A stretch of DNA of 64,000 nt from Carboxydothermus hydrogenoformans Z-2901 (GTDB lineage Bacteria > Bacillota > Z-2901 > Carboxydothermales > Carboxydothermaceae), in NCBI RefSeq assembly GCF_000012865.1, contig NC_007503.1, forward strand, positions 2,301,001-2,365,000, written 5' to 3'. The notes under the pieces are model-generated. The model had not been told where the DNA came from and ran no database searches. It saw only the letters and a list, made by a program, of their open reading frames with translations. Positions 15,402 to 60,300 of this stretch are shown here, piece after piece. A program made the position numbers and the translations under genes. The first letter of the stretch is position 1. Each line of letters opens with the position of its first letter.

Positions 15402-15457
15402 GGGACAGTCCCTAAAATTATACTTTAACGGTAATTTTGGGGACTGTCCCTTTTTTT
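15402..15457 (+). terminator. Rho-independent terminator with GGGACAGTCCC repeat
   Basis: A 19-base stem (18 of 19 paired) starting with GGGACAGTCCC and ending with GGACTGTCCC is followed by seven T. A related but degraded GGGGACTGTCC motif occurs near 35,860. Confidence 0.85.
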
Positions 15458-15493: not shown

Positions 15494-15568
15494 TTAGTCT
15501 TCATTTAATACGAAGAGAACTAAAATGAACAGGAAGAAAAACATCCATTCGTTATTTCTCCAGCTCAT
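15494..15568 (-). CDS. Hydrophobic microprotein 1 (24 aa)
   Basis: A tiny gene with an excellent ribosome site: AAAGGAGGG six bases ahead of the ATG. The product starts MSWRNNEW, continues with a Phe/Leu/Val-rich membrane stretch and ends in NED. It shares this plan (short polar N-terminus, FFLFILVLF-like helix, acidic end) with four other small ORFs at 16.8-17.7 kb. Such single-pass microproteins are common in spore formers, but I cannot place it in a named family. Confidence 0.7.
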   Translation of the reverse strand: MSWRNNEWMFFFLFILVLFVLNED

Positions 15569-15603
15569 CTTTCTCCCTCCTTTTGGTTTCTACCTTATAA
15601 TAT

Positions 15604-15852
15604 TCAATTAACTCCTTCGGGGTTACTGTCCGGCTTATACTCCAGGATTTCCCGTAGATTGGATATGGTAAAGCTTATCGTTGATAAAGTTTTCTTTACC
15701 GTATCCAGCGTAAAGCTTATTGATCTTATGTGTCTTTCCATATCTTCCGATAGGGCAATTAAAACAACAATGATTAAGAGGATTTTTAAGTTTTTATTCG
15801 TTACAAAATTAAACGATGCCTGTTCCGGCAGAGCATTTACCGCCTCCTCCAT
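15604..15852 (-). CDS. Small single-pass membrane protein of unknown function
   Basis: An 82-residue product, starting at the ATG at 15852 because GGGGGTGAAG lies just ahead; an upstream start would add 22 basic residues without a ribosome site. Residues about 20-36 (NLKILLIIVVLIAL) form a membrane helix, and the remainder is an amphipathic, Ser/Thr/Ile-rich helix that may be a coiled coil. It is upstream of microprotein 1 and divergent from the YbaB-like gene. Possibly part of the same sporulation-linked group; function unknown. Confidence 0.55.
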   Translation of the reverse strand: MEEAVNALPEQASFNFVTNKNLKILLIIVVLIALSEDMERHIRSISFTLDTVKKTLSTISFTISNLREILEYKPDSNPEGVN

Positions 15853-15954
15853 AACTTCACCCCCATTATTAAAATATGAATAAAGAAAAGCCGGGGTTCT
15901 TTTCCTCTTCTTTTGCATAATATGGTATCAAAGGGTAAACAGGAGGTGGAAAAA

Positions 15955-16245
15955 TTGGATTTAGACAAACTTTTAGCTCAGGGTAAAAAGGAACTTTTAG
16001 CTAAAAAAATTGAAACGGTAAGCCCCGGCGGCGGAATTAAAGTAGTTTTAAACGGGCTTATGGAAGTTATGGAAATAAAAATAAGTCCGTCCCTCTTTAA
16101 AGAGGAAAAAGTGGAGTATTTAGAAAAGCTATTAAAAGAAACCTTTAATTTAGCAGCTAAAAGAGCTCAAAAAATAATAGCCGAAGAGGTAGAAAAAAAT
16201 CTTTCTAACTCCCCGTTAAGCAATCTTTTTAATCTCTTTGGCTAA
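15955..16245 (+). CDS. YbaB/EbfC-like small protein
   Basis: A 96-residue protein. The core SPGGGIKVVLNGLMEVMEIKISPSLF resembles the YbaB/EbfC nucleoid-associated fold, where a beta hairpin V.V.. G...V..I.I.P is followed by a helix (here KLLKETFNLAAKRAQKIIAEEV). I start at TTG 15955 since AGGAGGTG precedes it; the in-frame ATG fourteen codons upstream has no site. It is not in the usual dnaX-recR context, and sits among spore-type small genes, so a divergent role is possible. Confidence 0.55.
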   Translation: MDLDKLLAQGKKELLAKKIETVSPGGGIKVVLNGLMEVMEIKISPSLFKEEKVEYLEKLLKETFNLAAKRAQKIIAEEVEKNLSNSPLSNLFNLFG

Positions 16246-16252
16246 GCTAAAA

Positions 16253-16289
16253 AACCCTCTCAATTCCATTCCTGGAATCTGAGAGGGTC
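16253..16289. terminator. Shared terminator hairpin
   Basis: ACCCTCTCA with inner ATTCCA pairs with TGGAAT and TGAGAGGGT. It lies between the convergent YbaB-like and ferritin-like genes, with A and T runs on either side. Confidence 0.75.
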
Positions 16290-16297
16290 ACATTTTT

Positions 16298-16702
16298 CTA
16301 AAGGGTATGGTAAAGGGCTTGAAATTTTTCCAGGTGTACTATTTCGTCGTTTCTAATTTCATAAATTACCCGGTCCACTTTTTCTAAAGTGGAATAATTT
16401 ATAATCTCTAAATAATCCCTGATTGCCGCTTCTTCCCCTTTAATTGCCTTTTGCACCGCCTCTTTAATATTGGTTACTTTTTCCGGCAAAACCCCGGTAA
16501 TTACCGGGCTTTTACCCGTCAGATCCCGATATAAATCGGAAATTTTTACAATATGTTCCCGTTCATCGTGTCTTGCCTCAACAAAAGCTTCCCGCACCAA
16601 ATAATCGTTAGTCGCTTTTAATACTTCCGTGTAAAAAAGCTCCGCCTCTTTCTCATCTTTTAAGGCCTTATCTAACATTTCCACAAGTTTATCCAAGTTC
16701 AT
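16298..16702 (-). CDS. Ferritin-like / rubrerythrin-type helical protein
   Basis: A 134-residue four-helix protein. Di-iron-type motifs are spaced as in ferritin-like proteins: DEKEAELFYTEVL in helix 1, EARHDEREHIVK (ExxH) in helix 2, KGEEAAIRDYLEII in helix 3 and IRNDEIVHLEKF (ExxH) in helix 4. No rubredoxin domain is present. I start at ATG 16702 because GAAGGGAT lies six bases ahead. Possible roles are iron binding, peroxide handling or spore coat location; the sequence does not decide. Confidence 0.7.
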   Translation of the reverse strand: MNLDKLVEMLDKALKDEKEAELFYTEVLKATNDYLVREAFVEARHDEREHIVKISDLYRDLTGKSPVITGVLPEKVTNIKEAVQKAIKGEEAAIRDYLEIINYSTLEKVDRVIYEIRNDEIVHLEKFQALYHTL

Positions 16703-16733
16703 ATCTATCCCTTCTTCCATAATTTTTATAAAT

Positions 16734-16755
16734 AAAGCCCTCCAAGGAGGGCTTT
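16734..16755. terminator. Short terminator-like hairpin
   Basis: AAAGCCCTCC pairs perfectly with GGAGGGCTTT across a two-base loop. It lies directly after microprotein 2 on the minus strand; the T-run is weak. Confidence 0.55.
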
Positions 16756-16764
16756 AAAATAGGA

Positions 16765-16860
16765 TTAATCTTCTATTCCAAATAGTAAGAGGATTAAAAG
16801 AAAGAATAATAAGAAGTTCATTGGCCTATGATGATGTTCATGGTTGCCGTTGTAGCCCAT
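16765..16860 (-). CDS. Hydrophobic microprotein 2 (31 aa)
   Basis: Start ATG has AAAGGAGGTCACC ahead. The product has a His-rich N-terminus (GNHEHHHRP), a hydrophobic helix NFLLFFLLILLLFG and ends IED. It shares the LLFG plus acidic-tail ending with microproteins 3 and 4. The His cluster could bind metal; this is inference. It lies in a run of three consecutive minus-strand microgenes. Confidence 0.7.
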   Translation of the reverse strand: MGYNGNHEHHHRPMNFLLFFLLILLLFGIED

Positions 16861-16896
16861 ACGGTGACCTCCTTTCACAGTAACTTTAACCTACTT

Positions 16897-16974
16897 TTAT
16901 TCCTCCATACCAAAGAGCAGGAGGATGAGGATTAGGAAGAAGAAGAAATCCATTCTTTTCTTCATGAAGCCCAT
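16897..16974 (-). CDS. Hydrophobic microprotein 3 (25 aa)
   Basis: Product begins MGFMKKRMDFF, continues as a Phe/Leu/Ile membrane helix with LLLFG and ends MEE. The ribosome site AAAAGGAGG lies within the end of the preceding gene, and its ATG overlaps that gene's TAA by one base (TAATG), so the two are translationally coupled. Basic N-terminus and acidic C-terminus suggest an N-in single-pass topology. Confidence 0.7.
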   Translation of the reverse strand: MGFMKKRMDFFFFLILILLLFGMEE

Positions 16975-17096
16975 TACACTACCTCCTTTTCTGCAGTGGT
17001 ACAAGTTTCATGTTCATCATCATGGTCATTTAGCCCAAAGATCAACAGGATGAGAATGAAAAACAAGAACCATTGGTTGCTTCCATTCATTGACAT
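16974..17096 (-). CDS. Hydrophobic microprotein 4 (40 aa)
   Basis: AAAGGAGGG lies six bases before the ATG. The polar start (MSMNGSNQ) leads into a helix WFLFFILILLIFGL, then a longer acidic tail with NDHDDEHE and a single Cys. The final codons double as the ribosome site of microprotein 3. It is the largest of the group and the first of the three-gene run. Confidence 0.68.
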   Translation of the reverse strand: MSMNGSNQWFLFFILILLIFGLNDHDDEHETCTTAEKEVV

Positions 17097-17223
17097 TAGC
17101 GTCCCTCCTTTTACTCTGTCTAATTTAACTTATGAATTTTAGGGCAATTAGGTTACTATGAGTTCTAAAATAATCTTTTAAAACATATGCTGTTAAAAGA
17201 CACCGATAAGTTGAGGTGGTAAA

Positions 17224-17607
17224 ATGGCAGAGGAAAAAGAAAGTAGAGGCTCTTTAATCGACACCTTGCTTTACCTTCTTGATCTTGAAAGTAAACGCGG
17301 AATTGATACTGATAAGGTTTTACTCACCATGCTTTTGCTGAATATTACCGCGGTAACAAATCTCGTTCTCCACCGGATCTCCCCGATAAGCTTTCAAGGA
17401 GCGGTTCCAGGCCCTATACCCCCCGGTGAGCTAACCAGCCTGCTTCCTCTTTTAACATCCCTGATGCAAAGCAAAGGTGGGAGTGGAGGTAATTTAAATC
17501 CCGCTCTAATGAGCCTTTTGACAAATTTTTTATCTCAAACTTCCGAACCCCCAAAAAAAGAACTCCCTCCGGAAAAGGAGGGGAAAAAGGAAGACCACCG
17601 AAAGTAG
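17224..17607 (+). CDS. Unknown small protein with Gly/Pro-rich linker
   Basis: A 127-residue product with GAGGTGG ahead of the ATG. The N-terminal half is helical (LIDTLLYLLDLESKRGID), followed by a moderately hydrophobic stretch LLTMLLLNITAVTNLVL and a Pro/Gly linker, then LTSLLPLLTSLMQSKGG. The tail is Lys/Glu/Pro-rich and charged. I do not recognise a family. Position inside the microprotein cluster and opposite strand suggest a sporulation link by context only. Confidence 0.55.
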   Translation: MAEEKESRGSLIDTLLYLLDLESKRGIDTDKVLLTMLLLNITAVTNLVLHRISPISFQGAVPGPIPPGELTSLLPLLTSLMQSKGGSGGNLNPALMSLLTNFLSQTSEPPKKELPPEKEGKKEDHRK

Positions 17608-17629
17608 CAAATAAGCTGGTCTGGCGCAT

Positions 17630-17716
17630 CTAACAGCAGTCTTCATCCAGTAAAACTAAGAAAAGCAAAAGGAGCAGGAAAGCGGCAGCACAGCGCCGGT
17701 GGTGGCGTTCGGTCAT
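17630..17716 (-). CDS. Hydrophobic microprotein 5 (28 aa)
   Basis: AAAGGGAGGTG precedes the ATG. The product has a basic His/Arg N-terminus (TERHHRRC), a Leu-rich helix AAAFLLLLLFLVLL and ends DEDCC. The two terminal Cys residues set it apart from the other four. Its end is 23 bases from the convergent end of the 127-residue gene. Confidence 0.65.
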   Translation of the reverse strand: MTERHHRRCAAAFLLLLLFLVLLDEDCC

Positions 17717-17858
17717 AAACCAGCACCTCCCTTTTCTTTCTTTGCTATAGAATATGAAAAAAATTTTTTAAAGGTTTCTTCACCGCACCCTTTTCAAAAA
17801 AACGTCATATTATACAATAGCACCGAACAAATAAAAGCTTTGGAAGGGAGGAAATTAC

Positions 17859-18536
17859 ATGCGCCAGGTTGAAGTAAACTGCTGTCCGGTGGTTATGGAC
17901 GCGGTTACCGAGTCAGGAATTAAGTGCTTTCACAACACCCATATCCTGTGTAAAGACACCAACGGCAATTGCATTCCAATTGACGCATGTATTTTAAAAG
18001 CTATTGTTTATGATTTAAACATTATTTCCGTTCAACAGGTCAATGGCTGCATGAACATTAAAGGTACCTATAGGGTAAGGGTTCTTTACGAATTCGATAA
18101 CCAGACCCAGGTAGGTACTGCCGACGAGCAATTTGATTTTGATGTAAACATACCATTAGCTAAAACCGACTGCATCGTTGCCAAATGTGACTGCTGTGAA
18201 GAAGAATGTGCAACCGCTACTAAACTCCATGTAATTTTTGCCACCGTGGAAATGGATACCACCGGTTCCTGTCAGGGACAATGCACGGGCTCCCCTGTAG
18301 TGCGCATCAGAGTAATTGTGGAAAAAGAATTTATGGCGTTTAAGCACTGCAAAGCCGTGGTATGCTTACCTCTCTGCCCGCCCGAGTTCTGCGCCCCCGG
18401 CGAAGGACCTCCGGCAGGAGAATGCCCCGATTATGTGGAAACTACCGAATGCCCATCCTGGTGTCAGGATAACCCCGATTCTCCGTATAATGAATGCACA
18501 TCCTGTCCGCCACCGCAAGTTACCGGAACCCCATAA
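17859..18536 (+). CDS. Cys-rich protein, probably spore-surface
   Basis: A 225-residue protein with more than 25 Cys, many paired (NCCP, CDCCEEEC), no signal peptide and a Pro/Cys-rich C-terminal third (CLPLCPPEFC, then WCQDNP and CTSCPPP). The middle holds beta-rich segments (YRVRVLYEFDN, then VVRIRVIVEKEFMAF) that resemble one SPOCS-like beta module. AAGGGAGG precedes the ATG and a perfect terminator follows. Intracellular Cys-rich, signal-less proteins of this type are typical of spore coats. The family name is unknown to me. Confidence 0.6.
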   Translation: MRQVEVNCCPVVMDAVTESGIKCFHNTHILCKDTNGNCIPIDACILKAIVYDLNIISVQQVNGCMNIKGTYRVRVLYEFDNQTQVGTADEQFDFDVNIPLAKTDCIVAKCDCCEEECATATKLHVIFATVEMDTTGSCQGQCTGSPVVRIRVIVEKEFMAFKHCKAVVCLPLCPPEFCAPGEGPPAGECPDYVETTECPSWCQDNPDSPYNECTSCPPPQVTGTP

Positions 18537-22447: not shown

Positions 22448-22571
22448 TTTTCATTCCCCCTCTACTTTAATTTATTCAAATCGCCTTTTATTGGTTTAGT
22501 AACCAACCGTTGTTTTTTTTCATAAGATAAATCAGAATCCCCGGAATCTTAGTAAAAGGAGGTCTTTTTAC

Positions 22572-23264
22572 ATGCCCAACTTTAAAATTCTGCAGGATCA
22601 ACCGGAAAAGCTAAAAAACCAGGCTTACGGCTTTGACGGTACCACCGTGCGGCCCCTTAAAACTGATAATACGGGACGGCCGGATATCAGACCAATAACC
22701 AATTCCACCGATAGTATCTTGGTTTACGGCAACGATGGTACCGCCAACCAGGTCTTAAAAACCAATAGTTCCGGTCACGTAGCCGTGTACACCGACGGTG
22801 CCACCGCTTTAAACATTACCGCGACTGACCTTGATATCAGAAATCTTTCCAACATCCAAGACAACATCCTTATTTACGGTTACGACGGCACCCAGAATCG
22901 GGCCATTAAAACCGATGTTAACGGAAACCTTTTGTCCGCTACGATCCGCTCTTTTACCGAGTACAGCGAAACCGCAACCACCACCGATACCTACACCGGC
23001 TCCACCGCCCAGGACGTATCAACCATGGCCACCTACACCATGTTTGTGAAAAATACCGGCGCCACCAATTCCGCTACCGTAAAGCTCCAGATTAGCCCCA
23101 ACAACACCGACTGGTTAGACGACTCGGCTGAAGTAACCCTTACTCCTGGAAGTAGCACCGCTTTGTCCGCTTCTACTTTTCTTAGATACATCCGTGTTGC
23201 ATATAAGTCCACCCTTCTCGGTCAATCCACCGATTTGAGCATCATCTTTCAGGGCCAATCCTAA
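22572..23264 (+). CDS. DUF6385-type Thr-rich structural protein
   Basis: A 230-residue protein with a threefold repeat near residues 10-120 (YGFDGTTVRPLKTDN, YGNDGTANQVLKTNS, YGYDGTQNRAIKTD), each about 45 residues apart. The C-terminal domain has WLDDSAEVTLTPG and FLRYIRVAYKST, ending IIFQGQS, shared with the divergent DNRLRE protein. Base composition is G+C-richer than its surroundings. AAAGGAGG lies ahead of the ATG; a strong terminator follows. Probably an extracellular or spore-surface fibre-like protein. Confidence 0.65.
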   Translation: MPNFKILQDQPEKLKNQAYGFDGTTVRPLKTDNTGRPDIRPITNSTDSILVYGNDGTANQVLKTNSSGHVAVYTDGATALNITATDLDIRNLSNIQDNILIYGYDGTQNRAIKTDVNGNLLSATIRSFTEYSETATTTDTYTGSTAQDVSTMATYTMFVKNTGATNSATVKLQISPNNTDWLDDSAEVTLTPGSSTALSASTFLRYIRVAYKSTLLGQSTDLSIIFQGQS

Positions 23265-32467: not shown

Positions 32468-33010
32468 CTAAACACTTGATAAAACAAATTGTTTATGAAG
32501 AGCGGTATAAATTGCTACTACCTCCAGCGGTTGAAAATCTTTCAAACAACTTACGGTTTTTGGAAGTTCGATCACCACAAAGCCTTTTAATAAAGTGACT
32601 GGCGGAAGAGTTTTTCCAGCAAGGAGATTATTTACAATATCGCTACAATCGATTTCCAGTGCAGCGTTGGGAAGTAATGTTTCTGTTATTTTATCCCCAA
32701 TTATTGGATAATTGTGTGCTCCTTCCGGTAGTGCGATTACCGCCTTTTTAGTAAAGGTTAGTGGGTGATCGGTTAGGTTTATTACATTGATCGCCGTGGC
32801 ATAATTTGCAGGCTTTAAAGGTGGCTCTTCACCCGGTGGCAATGTTGCCTCTGGAGGTTCTGAAGGGTTTGGAATAAAGCCGCAAATAAATTTTACCGGG
32901 TAAACCAAAATTCTCCGGCCACCTAATAGCTGTTCTCGGGGCTTAATATATTCCACGTCCAGGGAAAGTCCTGCACCAACTGAAATTGGGAGAGGATTTG
33001 TAATAACCAA
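32468..33010 (-). CDS. Unknown protein with Pro-rich loop, possible surface protein
   Basis: A 180-residue protein. Start TTG at 33010 has GGAGG eight bases ahead; earlier starts lack a site. A Pro/Glu loop (NPSEPPEATLPPGEEPPLKP, residues about 47-66) is followed by beta-rich NYATAINVINLTDHPLTF and KKAVIALPEGAH. No signal peptide and no recognised catalytic motif. It could be an external structural protein of the spore by analogy with the Pro-rich proteins in this window. Family unknown. Confidence 0.5.
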   Translation of the reverse strand: MVITNPLPISVGAGLSLDVEYIKPREQLLGGRRILVYPVKFICGFIPNPSEPPEATLPPGEEPPLKPANYATAINVINLTDHPLTFTKKAVIALPEGAHNYPIIGDKITETLLPNAALEIDCSDIVNNLLAGKTLPPVTLLKGFVVIELPKTVSCLKDFQPLEVVAIYTALHKQFVLSSV

Positions 33011-33102
33011 CTTTACTACCTCCTTTTTAAGAGAATTTAGTCTCACCTACTATTAAGTTATGAAACCAACTCCAAAAAGGTTAAAGCCCCATTTCTGGGG
33101 CT

Positions 33103-47821: not shown

Positions 47822-49852
47822 CTATTCCACTCCCAAAGCCTTGAATACCGCATCTTCGGGCGACTGGTAAAAAGATATCTGAAACTTGGCAAACAGTTCT
47901 GGCGGAACAGTAGCGATGTCAGTAGCCGAAGACATTGGCATTAAGACTTTTTTTGCTCCTGCGTCGAAACATACCTGCAGCACATTGGCCAGTTCTTCGA
48001 CTTTATTTATGGTACCACCAATACTCATTGAGCCTAAAATAACCATCTGACTCTGGCAGGGCCTGTCCAATGCACCTGAACACAAAGCAACAAATGCAGC
48101 AAGCGAAAGTTCGGATGTAAGCCCTACCCCATTAATATCTTCCACATGCATAAGGTAATCCTTTGTAGTAGTACTTATACTTCCGCTTATTTTCTTGCTG
48201 TTTGCCCTGAAAAATCTGAAAGCCGTTTCAATCGCCTCTTTAGCCTCTCTGTCTGAACCAAGACCTGTCTTTTCAAATTTTCCGCTTCCACTTACAACCT
48301 GTGTTTCAATCTTATATACCCCAATCATACCTGTTCTGCCACGTGCAACAGTATAGACATGACCTGGCTTCCCCAGCCCCTCGGGAATAATCTTGTCACC
48401 CCCTTGTTCAGGAACAGAAACAAACTGCTCATTCATAGTTTCATTGTCAATATATGAGAAGTGGACATCGTAAAACTCCATCCCGCCAATTTTCTTAAGC
48501 TGTTCTTTTACTCTTCTTCTGCCAATAAGTGCATACCTTAATATTTCTTCAATATCATCTTTGTCGAATTCTCCATTGGGGTAAATAAGCTTTACAAGTC
48601 CCGACACAGTTTTTCTTACCGCAATAACATCCCTCTGATTAAGGTTGTTCCCAAGCTTAAAATACCTGTCAAACGCATCGGAAAAAGAACGCTTCCTCAT
48701 CTCGCGAAGAAATTCTGCCAAATAATCTGTAATGAATCCATACTCATCTGTGAAGAATTCTGGCCTGAATTTTGGAATCTCCCATCCAGGCAAATAATAA
48801 TGTATTCTATCAAAAAAAGCAGTATCATTAGCTATTGCTTCAGGGAATGGTTCAAACAAATGAGAAGTTTTTAGTAGTGCATCAACACTCTGGTTTATAT
48901 TGCCTATAAACACCATTGAAGCTGTTGCGGCTTTTTCCTCTTTTCCTCGAGCAAATGACCCTGAGGCCATATAGTCTTTCATTATTTGTATCGCGTCTTT
49001 ATCTTTAAAGGAAATACCCGCCACCTCATCAAAAGCTACGCAATCCCAAAGTCCTACAAGGCCTATCTGTCTTGAAGCCATATTGTAAAATAAATTAGCT
49101 ACCGTTGTCTGCCCACCCGAAACCAAAATGCTGTTTGGAGATATCTCTTTATAAATATGAGATTTTCCCGTTCCCCTTGGCCCAAGTTCGCAAAGGTTGT
49201 AATTATTTTCTACAAGGGGAACCATTCTCTCTAACATATGCCATTTAACGTTGTTGGACAATTTTGTCGGCTCTAAACCGATCGACCTTATAAGAACATC
49301 AATCCATTCATCCTTTGTAAAGTGCCTTCTGCCGACCATTATTTCTTCAAGTTCTAAGTTCGGCAACTGTATAGGAGTAAGAGAGTTTATGCAAAAAGGA
49401 CTTGAACCCTTTTGTTCTTCATCAAAATAATAATCCATCTTGATGATGCACCAAATACCACCAGCTAAAAGCCTCTCATAATTCTTCACATACGAGGAAG
49501 GCATAACAACTCCCTTAATCCCAAGATTAGAAAATTCGGCTTCATATACGTCTTTCTTTTCATTGAGTTTCACCGTTACCCTGTCGATAATGGTATACCT
49601 GCCATGCTCTCGGATTTTTGACTTAACCTTCTCCGCCTCATCGGGCCTAACAAAGTTCTCTGCAAGTATGCTTTTGACCCTTTCAACTCCTTCACGTATG
49701 CTGTCCTCATCCTCGGTGGCACAATACATTCCCAGGAGGTATTCAAGGACATATACAGGCACATTAGCGCCTTCCTTGATCTTTTTCGTCAGGTCTTTTC
49801 TTACCACTCTGCCAGCAAAATGCTGATTCAATTTTGCACTTAATTCATCCAT
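47822..49852 (-). CDS. brxL: BREX protein BrxL, Lon-like AAA+ protease
   Basis: A 676-residue protein. Walker A LGPRGTGKSH (about 223-232), Walker B VAFDEVAG (near 272-279), and a C-terminal Lon-type domain with GLTSELSLAAF (Ser position) and AGAKKVLMPMSS (Lys position). Marks type 1 BREX. Its start is 17 bases from the pglZ stop. BrxL is needed for phage exclusion but not for methylation in studied systems. A SIR2-like gene follows in the same direction. Confidence 0.93.
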   Translation of the reverse strand: MDELSAKLNQHFAGRVVRKDLTKKIKEGANVPVYVLEYLLGMYCATEDEDSIREGVERVKSILAENFVRPDEAEKVKSKIREHGRYTIIDRVTVKLNEKKDVYEAEFSNLGIKGVVMPSSYVKNYERLLAGGIWCIIKMDYYFDEEQKGSSPFCINSLTPIQLPNLELEEIMVGRRHFTKDEWIDVLIRSIGLEPTKLSNNVKWHMLERMVPLVENNYNLCELGPRGTGKSHIYKEISPNSILVSGGQTTVANLFYNMASRQIGLVGLWDCVAFDEVAGISFKDKDAIQIMKDYMASGSFARGKEEKAATASMVFIGNINQSVDALLKTSHLFEPFPEAIANDTAFFDRIHYYLPGWEIPKFRPEFFTDEYGFITDYLAEFLREMRKRSFSDAFDRYFKLGNNLNQRDVIAVRKTVSGLVKLIYPNGEFDKDDIEEILRYALIGRRRVKEQLKKIGGMEFYDVHFSYIDNETMNEQFVSVPEQGGDKIIPEGLGKPGHVYTVARGRTGMIGVYKIETQVVSGSGKFEKTGLGSDREAKEAIETAFRFFRANSKKISGSISTTTKDYLMHVEDINGVGLTSELSLAAFVALCSGALDRPCQSQMVILGSMSIGGTINKVEELANVLQVCFDAGAKKVLMPMSSATDIATVPPELFAKFQISFYQSPEDAVFKALGVE

Positions 49853-49869
49853 TCTATCACCGCCTCATT

Positions 49870-52428
49870 TTAAAACCCAAAATCTTCATTGGTAATTGCA
49901 AGATCAATGGTAAAAGGTATCCTGTCATAGATGTTCTCTACCGTTTCTTCTTCATCTTCCAGGATAAGATAATATTTTTTCGTTTTATCATACTTCATGT
50001 TCTTCAGCACAAATTTTTCTCTAAATTTTCTTTCTTCAGGATTCTCTGATTTACTGTCAGCAATAATAATATTTTCGTTTGAAACTCTGTTGCCGTCTTC
50101 ATCAGCAAAATAAACCTTCAGTCTGCACGGCACCATTTTATCGCCTACCTTTTCGGTTTGGAAAAACTCAAGGTAGGTGATTGTGTTTGTTATTTTTCTT
50201 GTAAGGCTTAACAGGGTAACCCGAACCTTCTGAACATCTTTTGCGGACTTTCCGCGCTCATTCTTAAAATATATAACTGGTATCACTATTTCCTGTAGAG
50301 ATGAACCCCCATGTACATAATTTGCACCAGCACCTTTTAATTCGAATCTGTTTGTGCTCCGAGGAGTAATGCATTTAAGCTGTGTAGCCTCTCCTAAAAG
50401 ATACTTCATATCAAATGATAATGTGCCTTCTATTTCCATAGGCTTATCAGTTAAGATAAACCTTCTGTTTTCGTACGCATCTTCAATCTTATCCATGGAA
50501 GTTTTTTCACTCTTCTCTACACTACCACGCTTGTAGACAAAGCCATGGTCTGAAATTATATAAATATGGGTTGCGGAAAGATGATTTACAAGGTTGTTGA
50601 CAAGGGACTTCAGCTGTTCAAAAGCTTCTGCCACCGCATCAAAAACTTCCCTTTCGGTCAGATAGTGATCACCTCTAGCGTCAATGCTGTTGTGATAAAT
50701 ATAGATCAGTTCTTTTCCACCCAGAAGCTTTCGCAAATCATCCCTGCGCAGGTCAATGATATCTTTATACTGGACTGCTATGCTTTTATTCACATGATTT
50801 TGCAATATCATGTTTCGGTTATCGGTACCCTCAACAGAAATACCGTCAACAAAAACCTCATAATCGGAATCTATCTCTATTTTTTTATGCGGCAGCAGCG
50901 CAGCCATTCCAAGTTTTGTATAAGAGGGGAGCACCCCCTGCATAGCCGAAATTTCCGTGGTTCCCCTTCTTTCAGTGTTCAGCATTTCTGCCAATTCCCT
51001 TCCAGCTTCAAACCGCAGGGCATCGGAGATAATTACAAATACCCGTTCTCCCTTATTAAGATGCGGTTTGATCTTCTCACGGAAAAATTCCCATTGACAT
51101 GGGACAGAACTAATACTCCAGTATTCCTGCAGTGTTTCGATACTGTTGCTCCATTTGATTGAAAGGATATTAATAAAACCATTTATATAGGTGTTTTCTA
51201 TCTTTTCTTTAAGGGCGGCAAACCATTCTTTGTTATCCAATCTGTCAAAGAAATAGATAAACTTTCTGTAAGCCATGTCAACCTTGTAATATTCTTCCGT
51301 ATACTTCTTGAAGAAATCATGTGGGGGGTATTCTTTGATGGTATCCTTCTGGTTTTTCCATTCCTCAAGTAATACGCAGGCCCAGTAAAGAGCATTATAT
51401 TCGTTCTCATAGTCCTCGAACCAGTGCTTTGATCTTCTATCCATTATTATCTCTTTGTACCTGTCAAACTCGCCGACATCAGAAAGCAGGTTGTCAAGAA
51501 TATTTTGGATTATACCCTCATCAAATAAGCGGAAGATATCGCTGTCTTTATAGCTGTCAACATCCCATTTCGTGATATACTCTTTAAGCCTGATCTTCTC
51601 CTCCACCATTTGGGAAAGAAGCCTGAATGCCTTTTTAGTGCTGTTTCCTCCCATAAAATGGCTTAAGAATACAACCACATTGGTTTGCTTTGGTGACACA
51701 AAGGGCTCCCACTGTTTGGGCAGATCTCTCTTTAGAGAGAATGCCAACCCAGTTATCAGGAGAAAAATTGAAAGCTTCTCCAGGTCTTTTTGTTCCAGAT
51801 TATAGCCATAGTACTTCCTGACAAGCTCCCAAAAAGCATTTATATCTCCAAATTTTATGATGTTTTCATAGAGAGTCGACTCACCATACGCATACTCCGC
51901 AAGCAGGGTTTTCAGTACTTCTTCCAAATCGGGATAGGGCAGCTTGCAGAGGACCGACAGTACGGCAATATCCAGGATTTCTTCGGTATAGGAAGATAAG
52001 GCATATTCCTTGAATGCTCTATACCTTTCCTTGTTGTTGAAAAATTTCAGGTACTTTTTGAAAGCATCGTGCAGGGAATAATCAGTAACATTGAGATCCA
52101 TCATGATGATTGTAGCTCTATCGGTAGAAAATTCAAAGCTGTATTTTTGGATATCCAAAAGGTAATTCTCCCGAGCTTTCGGTTTGCTGTAAGGAGCATA
52201 AATAAGATAGTTGCTTTCTTTGTCCACCCGCTCAAGAATGTATTTTACATAAAAGCTATTCCTGCCATTAAGTTTAAGTATTTTAGCATTGGAAAGATTA
52301 AGAGCATCGATATCCTCTTTGAATTCTCCATTATCGTCGTACCAGAAAACAATATTCCTCTTCCTGCCGTCCGTAAGCTCTTTATTTAAAATTTCTTCAA
52401 GTTTCTTTTTAACCTCATTAAGTTCCAT
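49870..52428 (-). CDS. pglZ: BREX protein PglZ, alkaline-phosphatase-superfamily
   Basis: An 852-residue protein with the PglZ domain: VIISDALRFEAGRELAE (about 465-481), IYHNSIDARGD (near 577-587) and IISDHGF (624-630). These Asp/His residues form the metal site expected in the phosphatase-like fold. The N-terminal half is helical. It lies between pglX and brxL, gaps 18 and 17 bases. PglZ is a core subunit of all BREX types. Confidence 0.95.
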   Translation of the reverse strand: MELNEVKKKLEEILNKELTDGRKRNIVFWYDDNGEFKEDIDALNLSNAKILKLNGRNSFYVKYILERVDKESNYLIYAPYSKPKARENYLLDIQKYSFEFSTDRATIIMMDLNVTDYSLHDAFKKYLKFFNNKERYRAFKEYALSSYTEEILDIAVLSVLCKLPYPDLEEVLKTLLAEYAYGESTLYENIIKFGDINAFWELVRKYYGYNLEQKDLEKLSIFLLITGLAFSLKRDLPKQWEPFVSPKQTNVVVFLSHFMGGNSTKKAFRLLSQMVEEKIRLKEYITKWDVDSYKDSDIFRLFDEGIIQNILDNLLSDVGEFDRYKEIIMDRRSKHWFEDYENEYNALYWACVLLEEWKNQKDTIKEYPPHDFFKKYTEEYYKVDMAYRKFIYFFDRLDNKEWFAALKEKIENTYINGFINILSIKWSNSIETLQEYWSISSVPCQWEFFREKIKPHLNKGERVFVIISDALRFEAGRELAEMLNTERRGTTEISAMQGVLPSYTKLGMAALLPHKKIEIDSDYEVFVDGISVEGTDNRNMILQNHVNKSIAVQYKDIIDLRRDDLRKLLGGKELIYIYHNSIDARGDHYLTEREVFDAVAEAFEQLKSLVNNLVNHLSATHIYIISDHGFVYKRGSVEKSEKTSMDKIEDAYENRRFILTDKPMEIEGTLSFDMKYLLGEATQLKCITPRSTNRFELKGAGANYVHGGSSLQEIVIPVIYFKNERGKSAKDVQKVRVTLLSLTRKITNTITYLEFFQTEKVGDKMVPCRLKVYFADEDGNRVSNENIIIADSKSENPEERKFREKFVLKNMKYDKTKKYYLILEDEEETVENIYDRIPFTIDLAITNEDFGF

Positions 52429-52446
52429 ATTAAACCACCATCACTG

Positions 52447-55400
52447 TCAAATTTTTGCCAAAAGATTTGCTTTGAGGGTTTTTTTGCCTTCTCCCTGCGG
52501 GATCTCAATGCCCTGGAATTTGGCGTAGTTTACTGCCACTCCATCGTCAAGATCAATTTTGATCCGCTGATTTGCTACGTGAGCAATAACTTGGTCATAA
52601 GCGAGGCATTCCCGAATCTGCTTCTGTATCTTTTCCTTTTTCTTGCGGGCAACTGCCTTTTCCCTTTCCGATACATCTGATTCAATCAGGATTTCGAGCC
52701 TTTTGACTTCTGCCTCATATTTCCTCTGAAGCGGATGCAGGTAGTCAGTCCTGATCCTGGCCACGGTATATTCGTCATACCTGTGCATGTATATAAGTGC
52801 CTTGAAGCCGTCTTCCTTGCCTGAATCAAAGAGCCAGTAAATAGGTCGCTTTTTATAGACCTGCACATGGTCTTTATAAAATTCCTTCAGGAAATATCTC
52901 CTGATGGCCTGCCTTGGGGTCTCAGAAGGCTTCCTCCCCAGAGTTTCGGCAATATAGTTGATATTTTCTTCCAGCTTTTCCTCGCCAAAAGTCACCTTAA
53001 GGAATTCTATAAACCTGCTCACAATATCATCATCGAAGTATTCATCATCAAGAATCGGAATGATATTATCCTCATCTGGCAAATAGGTCGCATCTACCCA
53101 GGTATCGGATATCACATTACCGTCCTCGTCTTTTTCGATCTTTCTAACCTTACCGTCACTCCACTTTTCCTTCCACTCGCCACCAGCATAGATAAGCCCC
53201 TCGACATCAATTGAGTACCTGCCGAACATGCAGCCGACAGCATAGGAAATAAAGGACTTGATGTCTCTAACCCTATCTGCTTTTCTGATGGTTACATCTT
53301 TTTCATCAACTTCTGGAGTAAGCTCATCCTGCAACCCGTATATTTCAATGAATATACGGTTCAGTTCCTCCTCGTTGGCTTTGAGCTTATAAAACTGCTG
53401 TTCAGCAAATTTAGCCCAGTTGTTGAAGGCTTCTTCTATAGTTTTGCTGCTGCCTTTATGGATAAGCAAAGGATGCTTTTTGAAATCCCAGGAGGTTTCG
53501 AAGGAGTCCCAGTCGGTACGGGAAATATATATGTTTTCTTCAACGAGAGAATCTATCTTAGCCTTTTCATCATCATTTGGTAATATAACAGGTAACGAAG
53601 CAACATTTCCTACTTGAAAGTTCAGAGTAGGGTTTAAAACCTTCATTAATAAAGTTGAAATCTTGGAGCATAAAAACCCTGTCAAAAATAAATGGTATTT
53701 TTCTGGCGGAAATACAGAAGAACCTCCGACATCAAAAATAAAGCCTCGGTCTGAATACCTGACCCCAAAATATGATGAACTTACAAATGACCAGGTTATT
53801 GACTTGCGAAAATAATAATCAATATTTCTTACTGTTGCAGGTTTAAAATTTTTTAATTCAAAACCATCGTTCTCCCAATTTATAACATATTCATTGTTAC
53901 CATACCATTTTCTGTATTCTCCGCCTTTATTGTATGGAAACCACTTAAACCTGCTTTCAGCTGCTTTTTCCCTATTTGGATAATTAAATCCTATCCTATC
54001 AATTGCTACTTCATGCCACAATCTTAAAAATCTGCTATTGTCCGCCGTTGTTATTCCGAGTTTCGGCTCAGCAATTTCGCCTAATGGTCTACCTTTTTTA
54101 AAGCAATCAATAACCTTTTCACTCACCCAATACGCAATTGGCATGCCAGGAATTTTTTCAAAGTTATGAGGGCTCACTGAATATCTATAAGGAACATTTC
54201 GATTTTGGGCTGCTTCAAGAGTTTTTATTGGCTGCAACTCAGTTCCTCTAAAGTCTGATAGCCTTATGTATTCTCCTTTCGCAGGAATATAAGCGTTTCT
54301 AATAGTAAAAGTACAAATCGGAACAGTTGCCTCTTCAAAGCCTGAGTATTCCAATTGCACAAGAGAAGTAATAGATTTACTCTTGATTATAATTTCTCTT
54401 AATTTTTCATATGAAGAAATAAACATCCACACAAAAGGAGTCATATATCCTAAATGGCCATATTGCTTTGCATAGTTAAAATTTCTTACTATAAAAACTG
54501 AAAATAAATCATACTTTACATCTTTAAACTTCTCGGAAATATAATCTTTAAGGCTACTGTTTACCCCTTTGTTCCCCATATACGGCGGATTGGTGCACAC
54601 CACATCATACTTCTGACTCATTATTCTTGCCTGTTTTACTAACGCTGGCATCTTTTCAAGTATCACATTCCTATACTGATACTCATATAAATCCCCTGTT
54701 TCATTCTTAAACTCTTCCAGTCTTTTCTCAATAGCATCAAAATCAACAGGCTCAACCTCAAGTATAGACCCATACTCTTTTGCATCATGGAAAACCTTAA
54801 CCAGGTATTCCACATCCGCTTTAAGTTTTTCATCGGCACCCCTCAAAAAGAACTCTAATGCTTCTTTAGATATGCCATTGCTTTCCTGAATAGCACAGAG
54901 GTTTAGGTCAATATTTTCATCCTTTATCTGGTTAAATATCCTTCTGCTTTTGCTTCTTGCCTTCATCATCACCGCAAAGTAAGCAAGCTGAGCTGCCCTG
55001 TCGTCTATATCAAGCCCATAAAGGTTATTCTTTAATATAAGCTTTGGAATATCCCTTTCGGAATACCCAGCACTCTTGTAAATGTCAAACAGCACGTCAA
55101 AGGCATAGACCAAAATATGGCCGCTGCCCATACATGGATCAAGCACCTTGATATCCTCTGGCCTGATGTTTTTACTCTTTTCTCTTATCTCTGCAAGCTG
55201 TTTTTGTACTTCTGGCTCCTGCTCCGCTTCCTCCAAATAATACTTCCATTTGCTTTTCAGTTCTTCATCAGGGTGTCCCTCAAGCCACAGTCTGCCAAGA
55301 GAATTTTCAACCATGTATCTTACAATCCAGTCTGGGGTAAAAAGCTGGGTTGCAGCAGGAATATTTTCTTTGGTTATCTTTATATTCTTCTTCAAATCTG

Positions 55401-56082
55401 CGTACACTTTCTCCTTTTTTTCGGATATATAGTACTGGTACAGCCAACCGATAATCTCAACATCCCTGAAGTCCTCTTCCTTTATATCGCTTACAAGCCG
55501 TCGTATGACCGAACCCTCTGCAAGCATGTTGTTGGGCAGAAGCAGTTCCGTATAATCTTCAATCTTTTCAAAAAGAAAGGGAAGAATCTCATTGAGTTTG
55601 TTGCACTGCTTAATAAAAAGATACCTGAAAAGTCCTTCATCATCATGGTTATCAAGATACTGGTGCACTATATCAGGATCTTGGCCAAGATCAACATAAA
55701 GCGCATTGGTAATAATATCAGGCACCGCTTTGCCTTCTTCTATAGAAGAAAGCACCCTTACACCTGTTGGAAGGTAATCATTTACCTCCATAAACCTGAT
55801 TGCAATTATGCGGTTGAACCAGGTATAGGCAACTTCCTCGATAACTTCCTGAAACCCTTTTTCCTTTATCCTGGCTATAAGTATTCCCCTCTGCTTAGCC
55901 TCATGTTTTCCCAGCAGCCTGCCGTTTACCTTAACTGCATCTGAGGATACATTTTCTGCCTTAGCAATTCCTTTCTCCGTTATGCCAATTTCAAAGGCTT
56001 TTTGAGTGATATCTTCTATAAGCTTTCTCCTTGCCCATACGGCAAAATTTTTAACAGCACTCTTATCCATATCCAACACCAA
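52447..56082 (-). CDS. pglX: BREX adenine-specific DNA methyltransferase PglX
   Basis: A 1211-residue protein. S-adenosylmethionine motif DPCMGSGHILVY (about 315-326) and catalytic NPPYMG (498-503) are intact, as in N6-adenine methylases. The C-terminal region, about residues 600-1000, likely recognises DNA sequence. PglX marks host DNA at a BREX site and is also needed for defence. Upstream ribosome signal is weak (AAGGGATTG); the true start may be an alternate codon a few residues later. Fourteen bases separate it from brxC. Confidence 0.95.
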   Translation of the reverse strand: MVLDMDKSAVKNFAVWARRKLIEDITQKAFEIGITEKGIAKAENVSSDAVKVNGRLLGKHEAKQRGILIARIKEKGFQEVIEEVAYTWFNRIIAIRFMEVNDYLPTGVRVLSSIEEGKAVPDIITNALYVDLGQDPDIVHQYLDNHDDEGLFRYLFIKQCNKLNEILPFLFEKIEDYTELLLPNNMLAEGSVIRRLVSDIKEEDFRDVEIIGWLYQYYISEKKEKVYADLKKNIKITKENIPAATQLFTPDWIVRYMVENSLGRLWLEGHPDEELKSKWKYYLEEAEQEPEVQKQLAEIREKSKNIRPEDIKVLDPCMGSGHILVYAFDVLFDIYKSAGYSERDIPKLILKNNLYGLDIDDRAAQLAYFAVMMKARSKSRRIFNQIKDENIDLNLCAIQESNGISKEALEFFLRGADEKLKADVEYLVKVFHDAKEYGSILEVEPVDFDAIEKRLEEFKNETGDLYEYQYRNVILEKMPALVKQARIMSQKYDVVCTNPPYMGNKGVNSSLKDYISEKFKDVKYDLFSVFIVRNFNYAKQYGHLGYMTPFVWMFISSYEKLREIIIKSKSITSLVQLEYSGFEEATVPICTFTIRNAYIPAKGEYIRLSDFRGTELQPIKTLEAAQNRNVPYRYSVSPHNFEKIPGMPIAYWVSEKVIDCFKKGRPLGEIAEPKLGITTADNSRFLRLWHEVAIDRIGFNYPNREKAAESRFKWFPYNKGGEYRKWYGNNEYVINWENDGFELKNFKPATVRNIDYYFRKSITWSFVSSSYFGVRYSDRGFIFDVGGSSVFPPEKYHLFLTGFLCSKISTLLMKVLNPTLNFQVGNVASLPVILPNDDEKAKIDSLVEENIYISRTDWDSFETSWDFKKHPLLIHKGSSKTIEEAFNNWAKFAEQQFYKLKANEEELNRIFIEIYGLQDELTPEVDEKDVTIRKADRVRDIKSFISYAVGCMFGRYSIDVEGLIYAGGEWKEKWSDGKVRKIEKDEDGNVISDTWVDATYLPDEDNIIPILDDEYFDDDIVSRFIEFLKVTFGEEKLEENINYIAETLGRKPSETPRQAIRRYFLKEFYKDHVQVYKKRPIYWLFDSGKEDGFKALIYMHRYDEYTVARIRTDYLHPLQRKYEAEVKRLEILIESDVSEREKAVARKKKEKIQKQIRECLAYDQVIAHVANQRIKIDLDDGVAVNYAKFQGIEIPQGEGKKTLKANLLAKI

Positions 56083-56096
56083 TCCCTTATGAATAA

Positions 56097-59000
56097 TTAA
56101 ACAATCTTAATTATGGTATTTTCATCTAATTCACTTTCAAGCTTTGCTCTGATTTCGTCAAGAAGTTTTTCTATATCCTCTTTTGATTCGATATTTCTTA
56201 TCCCGTGGAGGAGATGTGAAAGACTTATATTCACAATTTTTTTCTGCTTTGGCGGTTTTATTACCCCTTCAGGGGTTTCGGCAACAATTGATGCTCCTCC
56301 ATGAGAATACTTTTGTTTTTCAACTTCATTAGCTATTTCTTCAAAATAGCGCTGCTTAAGCCTGTCGCTTTCTTCCTTCATGGCAATTACTTCATAAAAG
56401 TTGTTTGCATGATCTAATCTGTAAAGCAGGTCATCAAAACCTTTTCTGAATTTTTCATAATACTTATCTTTAAAATCATATGAAGACAACTCATCCAGGA
56501 CTTTCTTTTTATCGCTTTCGACTACTTGTTTAATGGGCTTGGCTTCTTCCTCAAGCAGTTCAGCAAATCTTTTTGTGAACTTATCAATAAGATCTGGTAA
56601 TCTGTAAATTTCACTGTAAGGCTCCTTGCTGTTTATAATCCTGGCAATCTGTTCATAGAGTTCTATAGCTGCCTTATCCAAGACATAAGTTTTGTTTTTT
56701 TCATATAACTCTACCATACGCATCCCTTTGTCGAAGATCTCTTTTTGCTTTCCTTCGGGATCAAAGAATTTCTTGACATCATGGGCATAATCCCCGTAAT
56801 CAAGCAATTCTTCCTTCTTATTTTGTATTTCTTCAAAAAACTCCTTAGCATCCCTGATTTTCAGCAACGCTGTAAAGAGCTTTTTACCTTCCTCCAAAAC
56901 ATCTTTTCCTGGATATTTGGCATACTTGTAGTTCTGAAGCAGTTGGTCTATATGATTGCACTCATCTTGCATATACTCTTTGATCTTGCGCATCAATCCG
57001 TCTTCATCGTTGGGTAGCGCAGTTCTCCCAAAAACCTCTTTTACTATTTCTTTTGCGGTATTTATTAATACTGGCGATATTTTAATTCTCTTCTCTATAA
57101 GCAGCTTTTCGGCATAGTCACGTTTTGTAAGGTATTTCACAAGGTCTCTATCATTTATGTCCAGATATTCCCCGTTTAACTGAAGCTTGACCTCCTGTGC
57201 CTTAAATAATTTTGCAATCAGACCTTCGATGTCTTCCTCGTTCCAGCCGTAAGGAGCTTTTTGGAATACATTTATAACCGTTCTCATGGTTACAGGTATG
57301 TTTCTTGCTGTATTTCTTTCGATGTAGGAAGAAACTTCCTCAAGTGCCAGTTTGTTGGGGTCTTCAGCCAGTGACATCTGCACAGCTTCCTGTGTGAGAA
57401 TGTTATTGATATCGCTGGGGGAATCTATAAATGCTTTTATATACCCCAGTTTGGTGTAAAGGGAATCAATGAGCACCCTTAAACCTTCATTTATCCTTTC
57501 AACGGGATCTTTCTCCCTTATGTCCAGCTTTTGGGCGTTTACGTATAGTTCTGCAGCTTTCAAAGCATCGATAATAAGGGATTTTACCCTTTCTTTCCTT
57601 TTGCTTGCTTCGTTTCTTTTTCTGTTTTTAATTTCTTCCATGGTCGGGGTTGAGGCAATACCACCGTTTTTCCTAAGATATGCCTCAATTTTCAATACTT
57701 CTTCCATTTCCTCAAGGAAGGTGGTATCTGGAGGCAGTTTCACAATAAGATTGTTTTCCCGCTGCGACATTTCTTTAAATTCAAGCTGGGTCATTTCGCT
57801 GCCTGAGTCGTAATATGGAGTGATTATTTTTACGCCAATCTCACTGCCCTGATTCCCTCTGAAAAATCTGTCGTCAACAATCTGGTTAAATGGGAAATGG
57901 TAGCGGGTAGAATATTTGAACTTTTTGTCTGGATAAATATCTTCGAAGATAATCTCCGAAACTTTTTGTATAATTTCAGCAGTATCTATCTGAATATTTT
58001 TGATCTCCCTGTTAATATCCTGTTCTTCATGGGTTAAGAAAATATACCAATCCCCATCCTTTTGAACAAGGTTCTCTTTTATCAGGCGTTTTAACGACTC
58101 TTCAATTTTCTTCTTAAGCGCAATCTTATCCTCATCGATGTGGCTAACCATCAGGGTAGCCAGGTTTTCAATATTAGGCGGAATCTCTTTTGTTAAATAT
58201 TTGATCATAAAAAGGACCTTCAAAAGTTCCACATCAAAGTCGTTTAAGTTGCTGTTTTCCTGAGCGTGAATAATAACCGTTCTGATATTTGAATCAAGAA
58301 ATGTTTCAATAGTGTCGTAAAAAGCCGAAAAGGGTATCAGCGTTCCTTCCTCGCAGTCAGCATAGCGTATAGCGGCCTCCTGGAAGGAACTGATCATGGA
58401 ACGCTCACCTTCGGAAAGATGTTTTCCTGACGCCCCATGAATTCTTATTGAGGTAAACACCTGCTGCAATAGATTAAACTGGTAAGGGATAAAAGGATAA
58501 ACTTCCGCAAAGTCATTGCTGTCCGTATAAAACTTTTTTTCTGGCGTATCGGCAGAGAAAGTTATGAGGTTTTTAAGGATAGAACTTTTATTTTCATACA
58601 GCAATTTTAAAGTATCGGTAGCAACTTGGGTTTTCTTCAGTAACCTCTTTTTGATTACTTCATCCACATTGGCGCTGGATAGGCTGATTCTGGTATTAAA
58701 CCTACCCTGGATCTTGGAGAAATCGTTGCCTTTTACCCTCGTAATCGAATCGATATCTTCCTGGCTGGTAACAATAACCCATGCTTTCCCACCGCATTCG
58801 GTACCCAAATCTTCTACCAGTGTCTGAAGATTTAGCATAAGACCAGAATTATCTCCTATGTACTGGCCAATTTCATCAACACAAAATACTACGTGATGAT
58901 TTCCCCCTTTACTCTCGATATATTCCCTGACTCTCTTTGCAAATTTATCAACGGTGAGAGTATAATTCTCTTCCGCTTTGTTATACCAATTACGTGCCGC

Positions 59001-59660
59001 CTGCTCGCTCATTTTGGTTGCAGAAGCAAGCGCTTTTACTATTGCGTCTTCTTCATAATAGAAGTCCTCTCTGGCTTCTTCCCATTTCCTCCCCGAAATT
59101 CTTTCAAATTCCTTTTTGAAATCCTCATAAGTCCCGTCTTTAGACATCTGTCTTTCAAGATCCGCAAGCCAGGGTATAGAACCGCAAAAACCTTGCATGT
59201 CATTAAAAACTCGATTAAATACTTTAACAATAGCGTCTTTTTGAGTTTTTGAATCAGCATCAGCTTTTGACTCGATATTAAAAAGTATAACATCCGCCGA
59301 TATGTTTCCAGCCATTTCTATATCTGCAAGAACCATGGGATCATCTATTTTATCGCGAAAATATTCCACGGCCTTTTTCCCTTTAACTACTCTGTTTTCA
59401 AGCAAGTAAGAAAGGATTTTTAAAAAGTGGGATTTACCGCTGCCAAAAAAGCCTGATATCCATACTCCCATTTTGTCCGTATATCCGATAATCCCTTTTT
59501 TATACGCTTCAAAAAATTCACTGAAATATTTTTTTAGCTCTCTGGTTACCACATACTCTTCCAGTTCTTGATATGCATTTTCCTCATCTTCTTGACCAAT
59601 TTTTATGACACCTTTGATATCCCTGTCAATTTTTTTGTAAAACATATCCCTAATTCGCAT
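56097..59660 (-). CDS. brxC: BREX ATPase BrxC
   Basis: A 1187-residue P-loop protein. Walker A FFGSGKSHFLK (about 71-81) and Walker B-like VVFCVDEIGQYIG (near 255-267). The rest is helical, typical of the DUF499-related BrxC/PglY family. The gene lies between brxB and pglX in the same direction with short gaps. Its Walker-B acidic pair (DE) is intact, so ATP hydrolysis is likely. Confidence 0.95.
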   Translation of the reverse strand: MRIRDMFYKKIDRDIKGVIKIGQEDEENAYQELEEYVVTRELKKYFSEFFEAYKKGIIGYTDKMGVWISGFFGSGKSHFLKILSYLLENRVVKGKKAVEYFRDKIDDPMVLADIEMAGNISADVILFNIESKADADSKTQKDAIVKVFNRVFNDMQGFCGSIPWLADLERQMSKDGTYEDFKKEFERISGRKWEEAREDFYYEEDAIVKALASATKMSEQAARNWYNKAEENYTLTVDKFAKRVREYIESKGGNHHVVFCVDEIGQYIGDNSGLMLNLQTLVEDLGTECGGKAWVIVTSQEDIDSITRVKGNDFSKIQGRFNTRISLSSANVDEVIKKRLLKKTQVATDTLKLLYENKSSILKNLITFSADTPEKKFYTDSNDFAEVYPFIPYQFNLLQQVFTSIRIHGASGKHLSEGERSMISSFQEAAIRYADCEEGTLIPFSAFYDTIETFLDSNIRTVIIHAQENSNLNDFDVELLKVLFMIKYLTKEIPPNIENLATLMVSHIDEDKIALKKKIEESLKRLIKENLVQKDGDWYIFLTHEEQDINREIKNIQIDTAEIIQKVSEIIFEDIYPDKKFKYSTRYHFPFNQIVDDRFFRGNQGSEIGVKIITPYYDSGSEMTQLEFKEMSQRENNLIVKLPPDTTFLEEMEEVLKIEAYLRKNGGIASTPTMEEIKNRKRNEASKRKERVKSLIIDALKAAELYVNAQKLDIREKDPVERINEGLRVLIDSLYTKLGYIKAFIDSPSDINNILTQEAVQMSLAEDPNKLALEEVSSYIERNTARNIPVTMRTVINVFQKAPYGWNEEDIEGLIAKLFKAQEVKLQLNGEYLDINDRDLVKYLTKRDYAEKLLIEKRIKISPVLINTAKEIVKEVFGRTALPNDEDGLMRKIKEYMQDECNHIDQLLQNYKYAKYPGKDVLEEGKKLFTALLKIRDAKEFFEEIQNKKEELLDYGDYAHDVKKFFDPEGKQKEIFDKGMRMVELYEKNKTYVLDKAAIELYEQIARIINSKEPYSEIYRLPDLIDKFTKRFAELLEEEAKPIKQVVESDKKKVLDELSSYDFKDKYYEKFRKGFDDLLYRLDHANNFYEVIAMKEESDRLKQRYFEEIANEVEKQKYSHGGASIVAETPEGVIKPPKQKKIVNISLSHLLHGIRNIESKEDIEKLLDEIRAKLESELDENTIIKIV

Positions 59661-59684
59661 ATCTTTACTCCCCTCGCTTCTCTT

Positions 59685-60293: not shown

Positions 60294-60300
60294 AAAAGCA

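Follow-up and report, generated by a model that had tools for sequence, protein, structure and literature searches.

SpoVM, an amphipathic peptide encoded by a single gene, is timed by sigma-E and recruits SpoIVA. This 26-aa spore peptide is located at the forespore membrane and is usually missed by annotation (PMC3533761), and the five microORFs considered here, A–E, resemble it in size class and in this annotation gap. At the same time, A–E are unlike SpoVM in being several strongly hydrophobic paralogs with sigma-K-type promoters, and no match to the SpoVM family of Pfam was obtained at E ≤ 1 for A–E or for 31 members of the FLILILL family defined below. The closest known kind to this family is YjcZ of Bacillus (tiny_TM_bacill, NCBIfam TIGR01732). 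Like the FLILILL microproteins, YjcZ proteins are about 30–45 aa long, combine a Gly-rich arm with an invariant hydrophobic helix ending in Gly, belong to spore formers and occur in several copies per genome (six in G138); B. subtilis yjcZ has been assigned to the sigma-K regulon (PMC517825).

Five microORFs of 24, 31, 25, 40 and 28 aa had been predicted in the window, i.e., the whole stretch of 64,000 nucleotides (64 kb) of Carboxydothermus hydrogenoformans DNA that was analysed, and all of them were recovered on the minus strand. MicroORF A (15494–15568, 24 aa, MSWRNNEWMFFFLFILVLFVLNED) is the second gene of its unit, after ORF82; microORF D (16974–17096, 40 aa, MSMNGSNQWFLFFILILLIFGLNDHDDEHETCTTAEKEVV) is the first gene of a D-C-B unit continued by C (16897–16974, 25 aa, MGFMKKRMDFFFFLILILLLFGMEE) and B (16765–16860, 31 aa, MGYNGNHEHHHRPMNFLLFFLLILLLFGIED); and microORF E occupies 17630–17716 (28 aa, MTERHHRRCAAAFLLLLLFLVLLDEDCC). 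The start of C overlaps the stop of D in a TAATG, and this coupling, part of the original prediction, is kept in both Carboxydothermus congeners. The predicted strong SD-type sites are also present before all five microORFs, namely AAAAGGAGGG for A and D, AAAGGAGGT for B, AAAAGGAGGT for C and, as a slight variant, AAAAGGGAGGT for E. The common plan comprises a polar, Gly-, Arg- or His-rich N-terminus, a hydrophobic run of 13–16 residues and a short acidic end. When a fixed rule was applied (GGAGG upstream, 18–60 aa, ≥ 12/14 hydrophobic), exactly A–E satisfied it in the 64-kb window, and dinucleotide-based shuffles of the window yielded a mean of 0.3 microORFs by the same rule, with a maximum of 2.

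The very short length of these ORFs, below annotation limits, would suit chance ORFs or translated leaders without peptide function, and the original prediction had been made dependent on codon-level constraint. Two other Carboxydothermus genomes were used for comparison, giving three species pairs in all. Both congeners carry all five microORFs in the same order, with SD sites; the B-C-D region has 75–80% DNA identity to them, the orthologs of A (L005/L006) are 96–100% identical, and length changes within the microORFs are multiples of three. Summed over the five microORFs, a sum on which the test rests because the single-ORF substitution counts are small, synonymous sites differ by 42–56% and nonsynonymous sites by 10–16%, with a dN/dS of 0.13–0.17 (Fisher p 2e-11, 6e-16 and 5e-13 for the three pairs). 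Since the order is conserved, dN/dS is in this range and the indels preserve the frame, A–E are protein-coding, and the strong synonymous excess in two congeners bears out the expected constraint; the substitution pattern has thus shown A–E to be translated genes. Chance ORFs or functionless leaders, against which the expectation of 0.3 in the window and the spread of the family across Bacillota also speak, are ruled out by this purifying selection at the codon level, and we give that explanation practically no weight. A–E are, then, real, and they are probably unannotated.

Sigma-E/sigma-K promoters had been named as a further check on the cluster, and an exact sigma-K consensus, with predicted activity, was found upstream of every transcription unit. 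For the consensus MACM-N16-CATANNNTA (−35 MACM, N16 spacer and −10 CATANNNTA), the 64-kb window contains six exact sites against 0.46 expected, four of them at the microORF locus. The predicted promoter of ORF82-A is AACC-N16-CATATTTTA (15870–15898, minus strand), an exact consensus conserved in both congeners (L165, L166); that of D-C-B is AACC-N16-CATAAGTTA (17126–17154, minus strand), likewise exact, with both elements identical in three species and a diverged spacer. MicroORF E is preceded by AACC-N16-CATATTCTA (17748–17776, minus strand), conserved in both congeners, and the divergent gene for a 225-aa coat-like protein by CACC-N16-CATATTATA (17786–17814, plus strand), conserved in both as well (L165, L166). 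The locus promoters in general retain both elements in the congeners despite diverged spacers. The two other exact sites of the window are located at 22501–22529 (plus strand), before a gene for a DUF6385 protein (22572–23264), and at 33054–33082 (minus strand), before a gene for a 192-aa unknown protein (32468–33046), the listed start of which is possibly too early.

The same signal accompanies the FLILILL family in other genomes. Of 134 family members drawn from many genera, 53 had an exact site ≤ 300 nt upstream on the sense strand and 1 had one on the antisense strand, and for looser sigma-K-like sites the numbers were 96 and 6; these counts are non-independent because the genomes are related and tandem copies have one promoter. 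When the spacing from MACM to CATANNNT was left free, a sharp peak was obtained at 15–16 nt (63/84), in agreement with the published B. subtilis sigma-K optimum of 15 ± 1 bp (PMC517825), and both the strand contrast and this peak are large despite the non-independence. C. hydrogenoformans encodes a sigma factor scoring above the spore_sigmaK cut-off. By consensus and conservation, the predicted promoters of the microORF units are of the sigma-K type, and we infer that they are used in vivo.

The neighbouring genes were also compared. ORF82 (15604–15852, minus strand, 82 aa), the first gene of the unit ending in A and apparently co-transcribed with it, contains a hydrophobic run, LLIIVVLIALSED, ending in SED and followed by a helical-looking tail; its orthologs in both congeners are 91–93% identical, with a sigma-K-type site just upstream, and no Pfam or NCBIfam family matched it. 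A YbaB/EbfC-like paralog (15955–16245, plus strand; PF02575, E 1.8e-14) is the second copy in the genome, the canonical copy being located elsewhere (125 vs 52 bits). It is followed by a ferritin/rubrerythrin-like gene (16298–16720, minus strand; PF02915, E 7e-11), syntenic in both congeners, and, between D and E, by a gene for a 127-aa "LLSN" protein (17224–17607, plus strand), which belongs to no Pfam or NCBIfam family and is a divergent homolog of a microprotein neighbour at locus L139 (phmmer E 4e-5). The 225-aa Cys-rich protein (17859–18536, plus strand), 96–97% identical in the congeners, shows weak similarity to CotE (PF10628, E 2e-4) and SPOCS (PF12673, E 5e-4), both under the curated cut-off, and is a probable coat protein on these resemblances. 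The wider window carries genes for the YabG protease and a SPOCS-LysM protein, as well as a rubrerythrin; YabG and SPOCS-LysM agree with the earlier placement of the microORFs among spore-type genes. Two further features of the window were recorded: paired palindromes, GGGACAGTCCC and GGGACTGTCCC, at 15402–15412 and 15440–15450, between a CAP gene and microORF A, which are present in the congeners and nowhere else in the window; and a complete BREX-type defence operon (47822–60951, minus strand; BrxL, PglZ, PglX, BrxC, BrxB and BrxA) with strong PADLOC matches.

A first-round profile made from A–D and their first relatives, run on 398 genomes of the phylum, detected the family in 97 of them, with up to nine hits per genome; within the C. 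hydrogenoformans genome it is confined to the microORF locus, and tandem arrays were observed at 32 of 86 family loci. The pattern, for which a search in further spore formers had been proposed, is found in many of them. The members are 20–46 aa long, with a hydrophobic run of median 13 residues, and follow the consensus of a polar, often Gly/Arg/Asp-rich arm and then [A/S]F[I/L][L/V]FLILILL[L/F][L/F][G/S]D; many have hardly any arm outside the hydrophobic core, and many others have Gly/Tyr-rich arms. In the wide member set, the search pattern itself accounts for part of the FLILILL invariance, but not for the flanking A/S, F and D. A scan of about 85,000 species for SD, ATG and core pattern returned 102 stretches; the clear in-frame products of ≤ 46 aa were all from Bacillota, including Moorella, Desulfofundulus, Desulforamulus, Desulfovirgula, Orenia, Natroniella, Fervidicola, Thermosediminibacter, Limnochordales and Halanaerobiales. 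Matches outside Bacillota were discarded, since they proved to be parts of signal peptides or of long membrane proteins, or stretches read in another frame. An earlier alignment-based search was also set aside, tblastn having confirmed none of its 302 pattern stretches, which were too short. SpoIVA is present in 93 of the 97 family-positive genomes against 336 of 398 overall, a difference of little evidential weight, as spore formation is found in most of the phylum and the genomes share ancestry; of the four genomes without it, two are 61–75% complete and two have weak family matches.

The five microORFs had been presented as a single family, and this claim was only partly sustained. In comparisons with composition-kept shuffles, scores as good as the real ones were reached in 1/1000 for A-D, 0/1000 for B-C, 0/1000 for B-D and 7/1000 for C-D, so that A–D are alike in these tests. 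An HMM built without Carboxydothermus gave C 25.1 bits and D 14.5 bits (0/500 shuffles as good for each) and B 16.0 bits (8/500); this strict core HMM matched neither A nor E. A scored E 2e-6 against the family alignment A3, which includes A itself. From these scores, B, C and D belong to the family, and A probably does, through its likeness to D. E has only the plan in common with the others and lacks an HMM match, a search of 119 genomes gave it no convincing relative beyond Carboxydothermus, and it was rejected as a member; as far as such comparisons go, E is specific to the genus while having the plan and predicted regulation of A–D.

Neither A–E (at E ≤ 1) nor 31 family members matched any Pfam or NCBIfam model. 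In the literature searched, on microproteins and sporulation, no description of the FLILILL family turned up (a text search for the motif gave one irrelevant match). The suggestion of a possibly undescribed family is in keeping with these searches. Such peptides are unmentioned in the available part of the M. thermoacetica spore proteome paper (PMC8745062), a point against the sporulation role proposed below. Membership of A–E in YjcZ was rejected, homology not being detectable: TIGR01732 had no match at E ≤ 1 among A–E or the 31 family members, and none in the C. hydrogenoformans genome; hhalign gave a probability of 25% over 10 columns between the two families; and with the new family HMM, YjcZ sequences did not outscore shuffled versions of themselves. 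YjcZ occurs in 2/149 genomes of the set, none of them of Carboxydothermus. The cores also differ, FALxVVLFILLIIVGA in YjcZ against F[IL][LV]FLILILLLLGD in the FLILILL family, the latter being two residues shorter with an acidic end. Judged by these comparisons, the FLILILL family is a new, undescribed one of a known kind, that of the tiny sporulation membrane proteins. The original description as a family of sporulation membrane microproteins is accordingly retained for A–D, with a predicted membrane location, and not for E, a look-alike.

Three neighbours recur across the family loci, often in one operon: a "KPFL" protein, a YbaB-like protein and LLSN, and the KPFL/LLSN operons often carry a sigma-K-type site of their own. 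Among the 97 family-positive genomes, LLSN is present in 56 and KPFL in 62 (Fisher p about 1e-25 over 398 genomes, a value that ignores phylogeny, related genomes making the counts non-independent), and a microprotein lies ≤ 3 kb from an LLSN gene in 19 genomes and from a KPFL gene in 22. YbaB-like genes adjoin microproteins in L023, L030, L035, L036, L073, L082 and L139; the presence of such paralogs in sigma-K-linked KPFL/LLSN operons elsewhere suggests a sporulation role for a YbaB-fold protein. A KPFL protein was not detectable in C. hydrogenoformans, which counts against the adaptor reading given below. In four loci (L026, L039, L048 and L095), KPFL domain and microprotein core (NPFTLFLILILLLLADLP) are joined in one fusion protein. 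This conserved sporulation neighbourhood, the tandem clusters with partner genes and the sigma-K-type promoters also speak against the notion that A–E are hydrophobic toxins of type I toxin–antitoxin systems, and no antisense gene came to light. A–E share size, hydrophobicity and a short hydrophobic helix with Hok/TxpA-like peptides and differ from them in sporulation-type promoters and synteny; we consider such a function very improbable.

We regard it as probable that the locus is a late mother-cell sporulation locus and that A–E serve as spore-envelope membrane adaptors, by a mechanism that we infer as follows. Sigma-K RNA polymerase would transcribe the units ORF82-A, D-C-B and E as well as the divergent gene for the coat-like protein. 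Made in the mother cell, the microproteins would approach the outer forespore membrane from that side and either enter it or cover its surface. Through their conserved FLILILL-type core they would bind to one another or dock, and they would serve proteins of the coat layers, including the KPFL, LLSN and YbaB-like partners, as small anchors or adaptors. Their role in these Bacillota would correspond to that of the YjcZ-type tiny membrane proteins in Bacillus. The membrane location of A–E is deduced from the hydrophobic run of 13–16 residues; because the family median of 13 would make a rather short transmembrane helix, the microproteins may instead be bound peripherally, be amphipathic or self-assemble, even in a beta-type form.

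This short core, with its alternating Leu/Ile, could instead belong to sigma-K-expressed structural coat peptides that are not membrane proteins, the beta-prone LILIL core and the Gly-rich or polar arm self-assembling into hydrophobic sheets or fibres. The Gly/Tyr-rich arms of many members, the tandem multi-copy arrays (32/86 loci) and the coat-like neighbour gene would fit such peptides; on the other side, many members have almost no arm beside the core, and in the AlphaFold model of one KPFL-motif fusion the motif is a helix, at low confidence (pLDDT 68). On balance, we find coat peptides of this type unlikely. Small single-helix proteins often regulate larger membrane proteins, and the conserved core suggests a specific partner, so A–E might act on an integral membrane machine, in the forespore or in the mother cell, as a small regulatory subunit of the SpoVM or CmpA kind. 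Since the family loci show no larger membrane protein that recurs widely beside the microproteins, sigma-K timing is late and up to nine hits per genome better fit a structural role, a regulatory subunit appears still less likely than coat peptides. The membrane-adaptor reading, which we prefer, may be extended, with considerable reserve, to a hitherto unrecognised membrane-proximal layer or assembly platform of the non-Bacillus Bacillota spore envelope, formed by the microproteins with their KPFL, LLSN and YbaB-like partners. In it, the microprotein core would dock into the KPFL domain, as the KPFL-core fusions suggest, and the YbaB-fold protein would have been recruited to spore building.

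Little is known of how the coat and envelope are assembled in organisms other than Bacillus; SpoIVA is the one universal protein among ten of the basal coat (PMC3533761). The combination of promoter and ribosome-site logic can find genes that lie under annotation cut-offs, and genome annotation has probably overlooked a class of spore-shell parts. Multi-copy microproteins with sigma-K-type promoters and fixed neighbours are candidates for the missing basal parts in thermophilic and gas-fermenting spore formers, among which Moorella makes spores of extreme heat resistance (PMC8745062).
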